From Roseivirga sp. (lineage in GTDB: Bacteria > Bacteroidota > Bacteroidia > Cytophagales > Cyclobacteriaceae), in the NCBI GenBank assembly GCA_018402485.1, contig JAGYIY010000001.1:838001-902000 (forward strand): a stretch of 64,000 nt of DNA, written 5' to 3'. Of the stretch, positions 11,599 through 26,854 are shown piece after piece (within the stretch, counting starts at the first letter, position 1; each line of letters starts with the position of its first letter). The position numbers and the translations under genes are program-made. The notes under the pieces were generated by a model. That model worked only from the letters and a program-made list of their open reading frames with translations, was not told the DNA's origin and did no database searches.

Positions 11599-11627
11599 TG
11601 ACATCAAGTCATTCCTAAGCGGAATCG

Positions 11628-11749
11628 ATTTATAAAGAAGCGTGGAGAGACAGGCTCTTCGAAGCGCTAGCAACCATCCCGATGCCTCGGGAAAGGTGCT
11701 AAATCCTGATCCCAAATGGGTGTCAAGTGACATTCGGGAGAATATAAAT
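11628..11749 (+). ncRNA. SAM-I-type S-adenosylmethionine riboswitch
   Basis: Conserved core GTGGAGAGACAGGCTC...GAAGCGCTAGCAACC...CCCGATGCCTCGGG AAAGGTGCTAAATCC; P1 closed by ATTTATA (11628-11634) / TATAAAT (11743-11749); directly upstream of metX. Confidence 0.92.
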
Positions 11750-11893
11750 TGGTACATCATGTTCACTAATTTTATCCAATTACCGCCCAAAGGTGGGCAC
11801 AAGCTCACCCAACTGCACTTACCTTTTCGCCATGTTCATTTCACCCATTTATTGAGCTTTTCAGTTCATCTTGGTTAATAATTTTTGAGCAAC

Positions 11894-12958
11894 ATGTTGA
11901 TAGAAAACCGCAATGTGGAGGCAAACCCTAGGGGTGAGAACCACAACAATTTGCAATCTTTTAGCCTAAAGGGAAATTTTAGTCTCGAAAGTGGTGCCTT
12001 TTTAACGAATGCCAAGGTAGCTTACCGAACGTTTGGTCAACTTAATGCTGATCAAACTAATGTGGTTTGGGTTTGCCATGCGCTAACTGCTGATACCAAT
12101 CCTACCGATTGGTGGTCAGGTCTGGTTGGGAAAGGGTCTTTGATTGATTCGGATGTTTATTTTATTGTATGTGCCAATATTTTGGGTTCTTGCTATGGTA
12201 GTACAGGGCCGAAAGCGTTTAATCCTGCTACTGGTGAAAGGTACTTGAGGGAATTTCCATTGATCACCATACGTGATATTGCGAAAGCACATGACCAGTT
12301 ACGTGATCATTTGGGAATTACACAAATTACCTTGGGAATTGGCGGTTCTATGGGGGGGCAACAACTTTTGGAATGGGCCATTTTAAAGCCACGGCTTTTT
12401 AAAAAGCTTGCCTTGGTGGCCTGTTCGGCTAAGAGCTCGCCATGGGGTATTGCCATTCGATCTGCTCAGCGCATGGCCATTGAAGCAGACCCTTCTTTTT
12501 ATGCAAAATCACCAAAAGGAGGATGGAAGGGTTTGGAGGCGGCCCGTGCCATGGCAATGGTAACTTATCGTACCGATGCCATTTATAATGCCAGGCAATT
12601 CGAAGATCAGGAGAAAATGGATGGGTTTCTTTCCGAAAGTTATCAACGCTATCAAGGTAAAAAATTGCGCAACCGCTTTGATGCCCGATCTTATTATGCC
12701 CTTACCAAAACCATGGATACCCATGACGTAGGGCGTCGACGAGGTGGAGTAGTTACTGCCCTACAGCACATTAAATCGCACTGCTTGATTGTAGGAATTC
12801 TCTCAGACATGCTTTTTGCCCGTTTTGAATCGGAACTAATGGCCAAAGAAATACCAAATGCAAATCTGCATTGGATAGATTCACTACACGGACATGATGG
12901 TTTTCTGACGGAAACCGAACAGCTTTCTCAACTTATTAGACCCTTTTTAACTCAGTAA
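11894..12958 (+). CDS. metX: homoserine O-acetyltransferase
   Basis: CHALTADTNPTDWW, GIGGSMGGQQLLEWA nucleophile elbow, C-terminal DSLHGHDGFL. Confidence 0.93.
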   Translation: MLIENRNVEANPRGENHNNLQSFSLKGNFSLESGAFLTNAKVAYRTFGQLNADQTNVVWVCHALTADTNPTDWWSGLVGKGSLIDSDVYFIVCANILGSCYGSTGPKAFNPATGERYLREFPLITIRDIAKAHDQLRDHLGITQITLGIGGSMGGQQLLEWAILKPRLFKKLALVACSAKSSPWGIAIRSAQRMAIEADPSFYAKSPKGGWKGLEAARAMAMVTYRTDAIYNARQFEDQEKMDGFLSESYQRYQGKKLRNRFDARSYYALTKTMDTHDVGRRRGGVVTALQHIKSHCLIVGILSDMLFARFESELMAKEIPNANLHWIDSLHGHDGFLTETEQLSQLIRPFLTQ

Positions 12959-12960
12959 TT

Positions 12961-14244
12961 ATGAAAAACATTTCCATTGGATTATTTGGCTTTGGCTGTG
13001 TGGGTCAGGGCCTTTATCAAACATTAAATCAGTCAAAAAACTTTGCAGGTTATATTGCTAAAATTGGAATTAAAGACCCTAGAAAAAAACGCGAATTACC
13101 TAGTCATTTGTTTACTACTGATGCACTTTCAATCATAGAAGATCCTAAAATCGATATCATAGTGGAGCTGATTGATGATGCATCCGCAGCATTAGAAATT
13201 GTGGTATCAGCTCTTAAAGCGGGTAAATCTGTGGTAACAGCTAATAAGAAGATGGTTGCAGAAAACATGCAGTTACTGGTAGATTTGCAGAAAGAAACCG
13301 GTAATGCTGTCCTTTATGAAGGAGCAGTTTGTGCCAGTATTCCCATCATTAGAACCTTAGAAGAGTATTTCGGTCATGAACCGCTCACGGAGGTCAAAGG
13401 CGTTTTCAATGGCTCAACCAATTACATCTTAAGCCGTGTTTTTCATGATAAATTAGATTACGAAACGGCACTTGCTCAAGCGCAGGATTTAGGCTTTGCT
13501 GAGTCAGACCCGGCTTTAGATGTGGAAGGCTATGATGCGAAATATAAGCTTTGTATACTTATCAGCCATACTTTTGGGCTACATGTGCACCCCGATCAGG
13601 TTTTGAATTTGGGTATTCAGCGCATCAAATCGGCTGACCTTGAATATGCCAGTGCTCATGGATGGCGCATTAAACTGTTAGGTCATGCGCAACGTATTGA
13701 GGATAAGGTGTATGCCTTTGTAATGCCTCGATTTGTACCGATTAATGATAATTTAGCCACAACAGAAAACGAATACAATGCTGTGGTCATCAATGGTGAA
13801 TTTTGTGATAATCAATGGTTTACAGGCAAAGGGGCAGGTAGTTTGCCCACAGGTGCGGCTGTACTCTCAGACGTTTCTGCTTTGAGCTATGCGTATAAGT
13901 ATGAGTATAAAAAAGAGTCTCACAAAGAAAACGTATTTTTTTCGAACGACTCACCGGTAAAAATTTATGCCAGTTTTCAATCTCCGGAGGATGTTTTACT
14001 CAACGATTTTGACCAAGTGATTGAAAAATATTTCAGCTACGATCATTGCTATGTTGTTGGAACAATTTGTTTAAATAAACTAAGGACAGAAATATGGCAA
14101 AACAATCCTCATATTAATGTGGTTTTGACTGCCGATACGTTAGATAACTCTTTAGGAAAGTTATGCGTTAATCAACTGAAAGTAGAAATCGATGAATTGA
14201 AGAAGGGTCAAAGGCTGAGGAAAAAATTGATGTTGCAGTTGTAA
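12961..14244 (+). CDS. hom: homoserine dehydrogenase
   Basis: IGLFGFGCVGQGLYQTL NAD-binding motif, NGSTNYILSRV, GFAESDPALDVEGYDAKYKL. Confidence 0.93.
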   Translation: MKNISIGLFGFGCVGQGLYQTLNQSKNFAGYIAKIGIKDPRKKRELPSHLFTTDALSIIEDPKIDIIVELIDDASAALEIVVSALKAGKSVVTANKKMVAENMQLLVDLQKETGNAVLYEGAVCASIPIIRTLEEYFGHEPLTEVKGVFNGSTNYILSRVFHDKLDYETALAQAQDLGFAESDPALDVEGYDAKYKLCILISHTFGLHVHPDQVLNLGIQRIKSADLEYASAHGWRIKLLGHAQRIEDKVYAFVMPRFVPINDNLATTENEYNAVVINGEFCDNQWFTGKGAGSLPTGAAVLSDVSALSYAYKYEYKKESHKENVFFSNDSPVKIYASFQSPEDVLLNDFDQVIEKYFSYDHCYVVGTICLNKLRTEIWQNNPHINVVLTADTLDNSLGKLCVNQLKVEIDELKKGQRLRKKLMLQL

Positions 14245-24119: not shown

Positions 24120-24371
24120 ATGAGTGTCGTTAAGGTTTATTCAAAGCAGCAACTGGCTTTGCGCAACGGCCAAGATATGCCTGAAACATGGGTAGCTTTT
24201 CGGGGTTGCATTTATGACGTTAGTACATCTCCCATGTGGAAAAATGGGCAACATTATGAGCATTGGGCAGGTCAAGATTTGACCTCAGAATTAGAAAATG
24301 CCCCGCACACTGAGGAGGTATTCAAGCGCTTTCCACAAGTTGGTAAGCTGGAAGCCACTGGCATGCACTAA
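24120..24371 (+). CDS. cytochrome b5-like heme-binding domain protein
   Basis: WVAFRGCIYDVSTSPMWKNGQHYEHWAGQDLTSELENAPHTEEVF. Confidence 0.85.
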   Translation: MSVVKVYSKQQLALRNGQDMPETWVAFRGCIYDVSTSPMWKNGQHYEHWAGQDLTSELENAPHTEEVFKRFPQVGKLEATGMH

Positions 24372-24409
24372 TTCTTTGAAACTCGCATGACATATTTAAA
24401 AAAAACACT

Positions 24410-24417
24410 TACCTTTG
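24410..24417 (+). promoter_or_regulatory. putative -7 element TACCTTTG upstream of the rpsP leader
   Basis: TACCTTTG 12 nt upstream of hairpin 1. Confidence 0.5.
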
Positions 24418-24428
24418 CAATCCTTTTT

Positions 24429-24465
24429 CAGGACGTGTTCCTGAGAAAGAGAGGACGTGATCCTC
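24429..24465 (+). ncRNA. tandem hairpins in the rpsP 5' leader (candidate ribosomal-protein leader)
   Basis: CAGGA-CGTGT-TCCTG (24429-24443) and GAGGA-CGTGA-TCCTC (24451-24465), between the -7 element and the ATG at 24485. Confidence 0.6.
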
Positions 24466-24484
24466 ATAAACCATAAAAAATAAA

Positions 24485-25195
24485 ATGGCAGTAAAAATCA
24501 GATTGGCCCGAAGAGGTCGCAAAAAGAAAGCAATGTACGATGTTGTCGTTGCAGATGCTAGAGCTCCACGTGATGGACGCTTTATCGAAAAAATTGGTGT
24601 ATACGATCCTAATACCGATCCTGCATTTATCAAAATTGATAATGATAAAGCTTTCGATTGGTTAATGAAAGGAGCATTGCCTACCGATACGGTGAAGGCC
24701 ATGCTGTCTTATCGTGGTTTGATGTACAAAAAACATTTGCAAATTGGTGTTGTCAAAGGTGCCATTACCCAAGAAGAAGCTGATAAAAAGCTAGAAGCTT
24801 GGTTGCAAGAGAAAAATGCTAAAATTGAAGGTAAGGCAGATCAATTGGCCAAAGCTAAAGCAGATGCTAAGAAGCAAAAACTTGAGGCAGAAGCCAAAGT
24901 AAGTGCTGCTAGAGCCGAGGCACTCGCTGCCAAAAAGGCAGAAGCAGAAGCTGCTGCTGCACCAGCACCTGCACCTGAAGAAGAAAAGGCTGAAGAAACA
25001 GCTCCTGAGCCAAAAGCGGAGGAAGTAGCTATTGAAGAAAAGGCTGAAGAAGCTCCTGTAATGGAAGATGAAAAGGAGTCTGCTCCTGAAGAGATAAAGG
25101 CCGAGGAGGAAAAGGAAGAACCCAAAGCCGAGGCTCCTAAGGACGAGGAGACAAAGGCTGATGAGGCCGAAGGAGAGAAGAAAGAGGAGAAATAA
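24485..25195 (+). CDS. rpsP: 30S ribosomal protein S16 (bS16) with long Ala/Glu/Lys-rich C-terminal extension
   Basis: [46 protein letters not shown]; tail from about residue 115. Confidence 0.96.
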
Positions 25196-25203
25196 TTAAT
25201 CTG

Positions 25204-25743
25204 ATGCATCTTGATGACTGTTATCAACTGGGTTACATCATCAAGCCTCACGGATTGAAGGGGGAATTGAAGCTCTTTATAGATGCAGATATTCCCGAAA
25301 ACTATCAGAATTTGGAATCATTTTTTGTTCTTAAAGAACATCAAATGGTTCCTTTTTTTATTGAATACCTTTCCATAAAAGGCAATACGGGTATTTGTGC
25401 GCTCGAAGAAATTTTGAGCATAGAAGATGCGAGCATTCTAAAAGGTTTACCGATCTATCTGCCATTAACCATGTTACCGGAACTGCCAGAGAGCGAGTTT
25501 TACTTGCATGACCTGCAACATTGCCAATTGTATGATCAGAACAATCAGTGGGTTGGTGAAGTCAAAGATTTGGTGGAAGCCGGACCGCAAATTCTCTTAA
25601 CGGTTTACGATTCGGACAACCGAGAGCTTTTGATTCCTTACAACAAAGAACTATTGAAAAGTTTTGACAAAGAGGAAAAGAAACTGTGCTTAGAAATTCC
25701 AGAAGGTCTAATCGATATTTATATAGAAGATCATGAGGATTGA
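25204..25743 (+). CDS. rimM: ribosome maturation factor RimM
   Basis: [32 protein letters not shown]; between rpsP and trmD. Confidence 0.92.
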
Positions 25744-26410
25744 TATCATCACATGTTTACCTAAATTATTGGAAAGCCCTTTTTCCCATTCTATTTTAGA
25801 AAGGGCACAAAAGAAAGGGTTGGTTGAAGTAGTTGTACACGACTTAAGAGCATACGCAACAACTAAATCTCGTCAAATAGATGATTATGCCTTTGGAGGT
25901 GGGGCTGGAATGGTTATGATGATCGAGCCCATTGACAAATGCATTTCGGCATTGCAATCGGAGCGCAAATATGACGATGTGATCTACCTTACACCTGATG
26001 GAGCAACACTCAACCAGCAAATGGCCAATCGCATGTCGCTACAAAAAAACTTGATCATGCTTTGTGGACATTACAAGGGTGTTGACGAACGGGTGAGGGA
26101 AAAATTCATTACCAAAGAAGTGAGCATTGGCGACTATGTGCTTTCCGGAGGAGAGCTGGCAGCCGCTGTATTATCAGACGCTATCATTAGGCTCTTGCCG
26201 GGTGTTTTATCAGACGAGACCTCTGCATTGACCGATTCTTTTCAAGATCATATGCTCGCTCCACCTGTGTACACACGACCAGCAGAGTACAAAGGCTTAA
26301 AGGTGCCTGAAATATTGACATCGGGACACGCTGGTAAAATAGAAGAATGGCGATACGAAAAAGCCATGGAAAGAACTGCTGAACGAAGACCAGATTTGTT
26401 GAAGAATTAA
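25733..26410 (+). CDS. trmD: tRNA (guanine37-N1)-methyltransferase
   Basis: [47 protein letters not shown]. Confidence 0.97.
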
Positions 26411-26494: not shown

Positions 26495-26854
26495 ATGAGC
26501 GATTTAATTAAATTTATAGAGGAAGAAGATAGCGCAAGAAGAGCCAATATGCCCTCTTTCAATGCTGGAGATACTGTTAACGTCCACGTAAAAATCCGTG
26601 AGGGTAACAAAGAAAGAATCCAGCAGTTCCAAGGAACTGTTATTCAACGTAAAAACTCAGGTTCCAATGGCGAAACTTTTACAGTTCGTAAAATCTCTGG
26701 AGGTATAGGTGTAGAAAGAATTTTTCCTTTACTTTCACCTAACATTGACAAAATTGATGTAGTGAGAAGAGGTAAAGTAAGAAGAGCTAAGTTGTTCTAC
26801 ATGAGGGGACGACAAGGCAAGGCCGCTCGAATCAAAGAGCGTTTGGCCAGATAG
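26495..26854 (+). CDS. rplS: 50S ribosomal protein L19
   Basis: [65 protein letters not shown]. Confidence 0.98.

Follow-up and report, generated by a model that had tools for sequence, protein, structure and literature searches.

A tandem-hairpin rpsP leader of Roseivirga as a candidate S16 autoregulatory element

According to a review of ribosomal-protein regulation, nothing is known on the control of expression of the trmD operon, which includes rpsP (PMC10931766). The closest described system is an S16 leader predicted in Flavobacteria by Eckert and Weinberg (2020; PMC7247131), Rfam family RF03138, with the consensus AUUAAU-AACC-GAGGU-CGAGA-ACCUC-AAAA-AUUAAU. A sequence-only reading of the Roseivirga DNA considered here had mentioned S16 leader candidates in Flavobacteria; such a leader does exist, and it is this one. 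Other ribosomal-protein leaders of Bacteroidota described in the same paper, among them the L13 and S4 motifs, are likewise small structured 5' leaders whose presumed ligand is the ribosomal protein encoded downstream; the paper describes its S4 motifs, one from Bacteroidia and one from Flavobacteria, as hairpins with no likeness to one another or to further S4 leaders. These motifs belong to operons other than that of the element reported here.

The rpsP leader in Roseivirga and its relation to RF03138

The window (the whole 64-kb stretch of DNA analysed) contains the following features of the rpsP leader and its operon.

24410..24417, + strand: -7 element TACCTTTG, Bacteroidota sigma-A type (TAnnTTTG), read from the sequence
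24422..24484, + strand: predicted rpsP 5' leader RNA, 63 nt, its start inferred
24429..24443, + strand: hairpin 1, CAGGA-CGTGT-TCCTG (sequence, fold, covariance model 20.9 bits)
24451..24465, + strand: hairpin 2, GAGGA-CGTGA-TCCTC (sequence, fold, covariance model 21.0 bits)
24485..25195, + strand: rpsP, ribosomal protein bS16 (Pfam PF00886 over residues 9-67)
25204..25743, + strand: rimM, 16S rRNA processing protein (Pfam)
25733..26410, + strand: trmD, tRNA (guanine-1) methyltransferase (Pfam)
26495..26854, + strand: rplS, ribosomal protein bL19 (Pfam)

Because the TAnnTTTG box occupies -12 to -5 relative to the transcription start (PMC9723704), the position of TACCTTTG predicts a start near 24422, just 5' of hairpin 1. 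The sequence-only reading had described two consecutive hairpins between the -7 element and the rpsP ATG, sharing a GGACGTG(T/A)TCC core and differing at one stem pair. All of this is borne out: the predicted fold of the leader consists of exactly these two hairpins, each with a 5-bp stem and a five-base CGNGN loop (CGUGU and CGUGA), and their stems differ in the outermost pair alone, C-G versus G-C. A genome search placed the core (GGACGTGWTCC) at two sites only in the entire genome, both in the rpsP leader, and the leader copies were also the only two matches of our hairpin covariance model within the window.

Hairpin 1 has a lower A/U-rich extension (24423-24428 paired with 24444-24449), giving 11 pairs in the predicted fold (24423-24433 with 24439-24449) and leaving one base before hairpin 2. 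The base of hairpin 2 lies 19 nt from the rpsP ATG (24485), a position that matches that of the lone hairpin of other Cytophagales, and the region beside the AUG is A-rich with little structure. The leader is predicted to fold at -21.8 kcal/mol, whereas shuffled versions average -10.4 (z = -4.4).

In the bS16 of the window, the part beyond about residue 70 of 236 lies outside the Pfam S16 domain and forms a long, charged C-terminal extension; long rpsP frames are also frequent in relatives. A known L19 leader was looked for upstream of rplS in the window and none was found. Elsewhere in the window there is a SAM riboswitch (RF00162, 69 bits; 11627-11750, + strand), 3' of which are homoserine O-acetyltransferase-like (11885-12958) and homoserine dehydrogenase-like (12961-14244) reading frames, both named by eye from their translations.

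The Roseivirga element resembles RF03138 in lying directly 5' of rpsP, with rimM usually the next gene, in its predicted S16 ligand, and in having a stem of 5 bp capped by a loop of five bases, which in RF03138 is of the CGAGA type. It differs in three respects: the loop is closed by A-U within GGA...UCC, whereas RF03138 has U-A within GGU...ACC; the outer AUUAAU helix that RF03138 carries across a 4-nt internal loop is absent from the window; and the window has two tandem copies. The closing pair is U-A in Flavobacterium-type leaders and A-U in Chryseobacterium-type and Cytophagales leaders.

The RF03138 model matched seven of the 16 Flavobacteriales loci tested. It gave no match in the 64-kb window at its 35.7-bit gathering cut-off, none in 24250-24700 at E up to 10, and none at the cut-off in 15 Cytophagales loci; hairpin-bearing Bacteroidales (L073, L074, L086, and L102) and the Chryseobacterium-type leaders with A-U-closed hairpins were also without a match. 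Since the model misses all of these, we have not filed the element in RF03138. The sequence-only reading could not say whether its motif was the flavobacterial one, and the answer is divided: judged by the RF03138 model, the window element is not of the same family, but under a broader definition it can be regarded as the same kind of element. What was already known is a predicted one-hairpin S16 leader in Flavobacteria; what is new is a two-hairpin, A-U-closed version that is missed by Rfam.

A conserved, covarying RNA structure specific to rpsP

Conservation was assessed in 211 upstream regions, chosen by rpsP alone except for L139, which entered through the pattern. Of these leaders, 158 contain a CGNGN hairpin with 4 bp or more, where shuffled sequences lead one to expect 2.4 and other loop patterns give 0-12; this comparative count is far stronger evidence against chance than is the fold of the window. 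The hairpin was found in 19/19 leaders of the genus (all double), in 116/134 other leaders taken as Cytophagales (nearly always as a single copy) and in 23/58 leaders from other Bacteroidota, these groups having been set from record titles and kinship, with a few possibly misplaced. Both copies were at the same place in 18 of 18 same-genus genomes compared, and a pattern search across 195 genomes of the order located the motif 10-40 nt 5' of rpsP in 95 of them, against a handful of matches in controls. A scan that ignored loop sequence took the most stable hairpin within the 75 nt preceding rpsP, and for 127 of the 153 Cytophagales leaders this was of the CGNG type.

In the C-G-N-G-N loop the C and both Gs are fixed, while the stem sequence is nearly free. 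The covariation score was 0.656 on 105 distinct hairpins, compared to 0.155 for shuffles and at most 0.18 when partners were slid; these hairpins had been selected for at least 4 pairs, a bias toward pairing, and for this reason the pair count was redone on leaders for which the loop and its closing pair were the sole basis of selection. In these, pairs 2 to 6 were kept in 189, 188, 178, 158, and 120 of 194 (shuffled means 154, 144, 74, 92, and 71), and pairing was at chance level for pairs 7 and 8. All four Watson-Crick combinations occur in similar numbers at pair 4, and on the rpsP protein tree pairs 1 to 4 show at least 4, 12, 18, and 48 changes of state, respectively. Within the genus there are two-sided changes in both helices with 99% of cells paired, and the four inner pairs of hairpin 1 are kept in 19/19 sequences despite such changes. 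The sequence-only reading had taken the single C-G versus G-C difference as a sign of structural conservation and had proposed that rpsP upstream regions of relatives be compared for covariation; that comparison supports its suggestion, with the hairpins kept in every same-genus genome compared and in most Cytophagales, and with a stem that covaries.

The loop has the sense orientation in 158 leaders and the antisense orientation in 2. A TAnnTTTG-type box is located upstream in 152 of the 158 hairpin-bearing leaders, and in 150 of those 152 no part of the first hairpin precedes the predicted transcription start; the hairpin base is usually 14-24 nt 5' of the AUG.

In ten whole genomes, the only leader matches of the covariance model were those of rpsP. 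All but two of the remaining matches overlap reading frames; of these two, the one in Chryseobacterium is followed by a T-run and is terminator-like, and the one in Algoriphagus appears by eye to be coding. We therefore rejected the idea that the hairpin is common to the leaders of other genes. The model is short and its E-values are weak, such that ranking alone proves little. These computational analyses show that the leader element is an RNA structure, encoded on the sense strand, which is conserved, covaries and is specific to rpsP, features shared with ribosomal-protein leaders as a class. The proposal that a regulatory RNA element resides here is well supported.

The probable ligand and competing explanations

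We place at roughly 0.7 the probability that the element is an S16 autoregulatory leader, a tandem leader that allows free bS16 to repress the mRNA encoding it. That bS16 is the ligand is probable on several grounds. In hairpin-bearing Flavobacteria rpsP is followed by rimM, and trmD and rplS were not found within 3.3 kb. In two Cytophagales bins, L048 (hairpin GAAGGA-CGGGU-UCCUUC) and L053 (GAAUUGA-CGAGU-UCAAUU), the gene after rpsP is convergent, on the opposite strand, and RimM was not found downstream of rpsP. As rpsP stands alone in these two hairpin-bearing loci, bS16 is the sole possible operon-encoded ligand there, and together with the flavobacterial gene order this eliminates TrmD and bL19 as ligands and leaves RimM an unlikely one. 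Gene context thus favours bS16, and we also count in its favour the fact that a predicted S16 leader (RF03138) is already known at the same place.

The leader RNA might instead be bound by another protein (RimM, TrmD, bL19 or an unlinked RNA-binding protein), with the operon regulated in trans. We consider this unlikely, even though RimM is encoded after rpsP in most hairpin-bearing genomes and acts in 30S maturation, because of the gene contexts described above and because known ribosomal-protein leader ligands are encoded by a gene under the control of the leader (PMC7247131). Also on the side of another protein is our failure to find mimicry of the S16 rRNA site in the hairpin model searches of 16S rRNA and in the helix 17 tips. 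Helix 17 of 16S rRNA is part of the S16 binding site (PMC5591316), and its tip in a Chryseobacterium 16S (L230) is CUUUCC-A-CGUG-U-GGAAAG, with loop letters similar to those of the leader. However, that loop has four bases rather than five, and the tip is UGCG in twelve Cytophagales 16S loci from eight genomes, so that on this evidence the helix 17 tip is not a shared recognition element. The hairpin model had no sense-strand match in nine 16S loci, and on these results mimicry of 16S rRNA was rejected. Eckert and Weinberg (2020; PMC7247131) do not mark the flavobacterial S16 leader as rRNA-like.

It is distinctly unlikely that the leader is a ligand-free structural element, protecting the mRNA or holding the A-rich initiation region open, with stems conserved only as stems. 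The location of the hairpins just after the predicted start and the A-rich, weakly structured region adjoining the AUG are consistent with such a role, but stability alone would permit any stable loop, whereas the loop C, G, and G are kept in most leaders across several orders. Swaps to loops such as UGCG or UUCG are possible yet rare. They are seen in the rpsP leaders L056 (Spirosoma) and L215, in which a strong hairpin is kept with a TGCG or TTCG loop in place of CGNGN, which looks like loss of the recognition loop; the element is thus dispensable in some lineages, a point that weighs against the S16 reading.

A DNA inverted repeat read by a transcription factor could account for near-palindromic cores just downstream of a promoter, but is very improbable given the strand bias of the asymmetric loop, half-sites that are free to vary while pairing holds (with G-U pairs tolerated), and the lack of the hairpin in other leaders. 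A transcription attenuator or terminator, which two consecutive hairpins in the short leader of a ribosomal-protein operon might bring to mind, is scarcely credible, as neither hairpin is followed by a U-run on the sense strand and the sole terminator-like match of the region is on the opposite strand.

If the element is an S16 autoregulatory leader, bS16 in surplus over the available 16S rRNA would bind the leader. The C-G-N-G-N loop on a 5-6 bp stem of near-free sequence suggests that the protein would read the loop and the shape of the helix. Hairpin 2 ends 19 nt 5' of the AUG, at what would be the 5' boundary of the site where the 30S subunit lands, and because of this position leader-bound bS16 might block or trap initiation of rpsP and, via coupling, of rimM, trmD, and rplS as well. 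We regard it as an even bet that repression acts at initiation and not on mRNA stability or on elongation. With its second hairpin, the leader would bind more tightly or accommodate two proteins.

Copy number and lineage variation of rpsP leaders

Two-copy leaders occur in the genus of the window, in two other Cytophagales genera (L273-L276; L280) and in Polaribacter (L077 and L104), and those of different lineages have differing stems and spacings. By parsimony on the rpsP tree, copy number has changed at least four times. This pattern suggests a recurrent benefit of a second hairpin site, possibly through cooperative binding. Loop-loop kissing via the ACGU of the two loops would be possible in the window; in relatives loop base 3 is A or G, and this interaction, not being conserved, was rejected.

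We lean slightly toward a single ancient S16 leader, a CGNGN-capped hairpin with a free stem, across the Cytophagales, Flavobacteriales, and Bacteroidales of the Bacteroidia, of which RF03138 would be one branch and in which the two-hairpin form would have arisen several times independently, suggesting two S16 molecules or surfaces per leader. The current database model (RF03138) covers one lineage only, and the hairpin is far more widespread than described. With 15 nt and three fixed loop bases, it is a compact, widespread and readily testable regulatory candidate for the trmD operon. Genera that can be cultured are among those that have it, including Algoriphagus, Hymenobacter, Flavobacterium, and Chryseobacterium. 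The recurrent tandem copies also allow leaders with one site to be compared with naturally occurring two-site leaders.

Other elements were observed 5' of rpsP in some groups. Some Flavobacteriales (L088, L089, and L090) have a GGGT...ACCC hairpin with a TTAGG loop just 5' of rpsP, where others have CGNGN. The rpsP leaders of Sphingobacteriales (L054, L067, L068, L070, L072, L076, and L078) have a different invariant element, ATGTTGAATACAT, with a hairpin loop of TGAAT, situated about 10-30 nt 5' of rpsP and preceded by a variable GC-rich hairpin. The ATGTTGAATACAT element is a candidate for a separate S16 leader.
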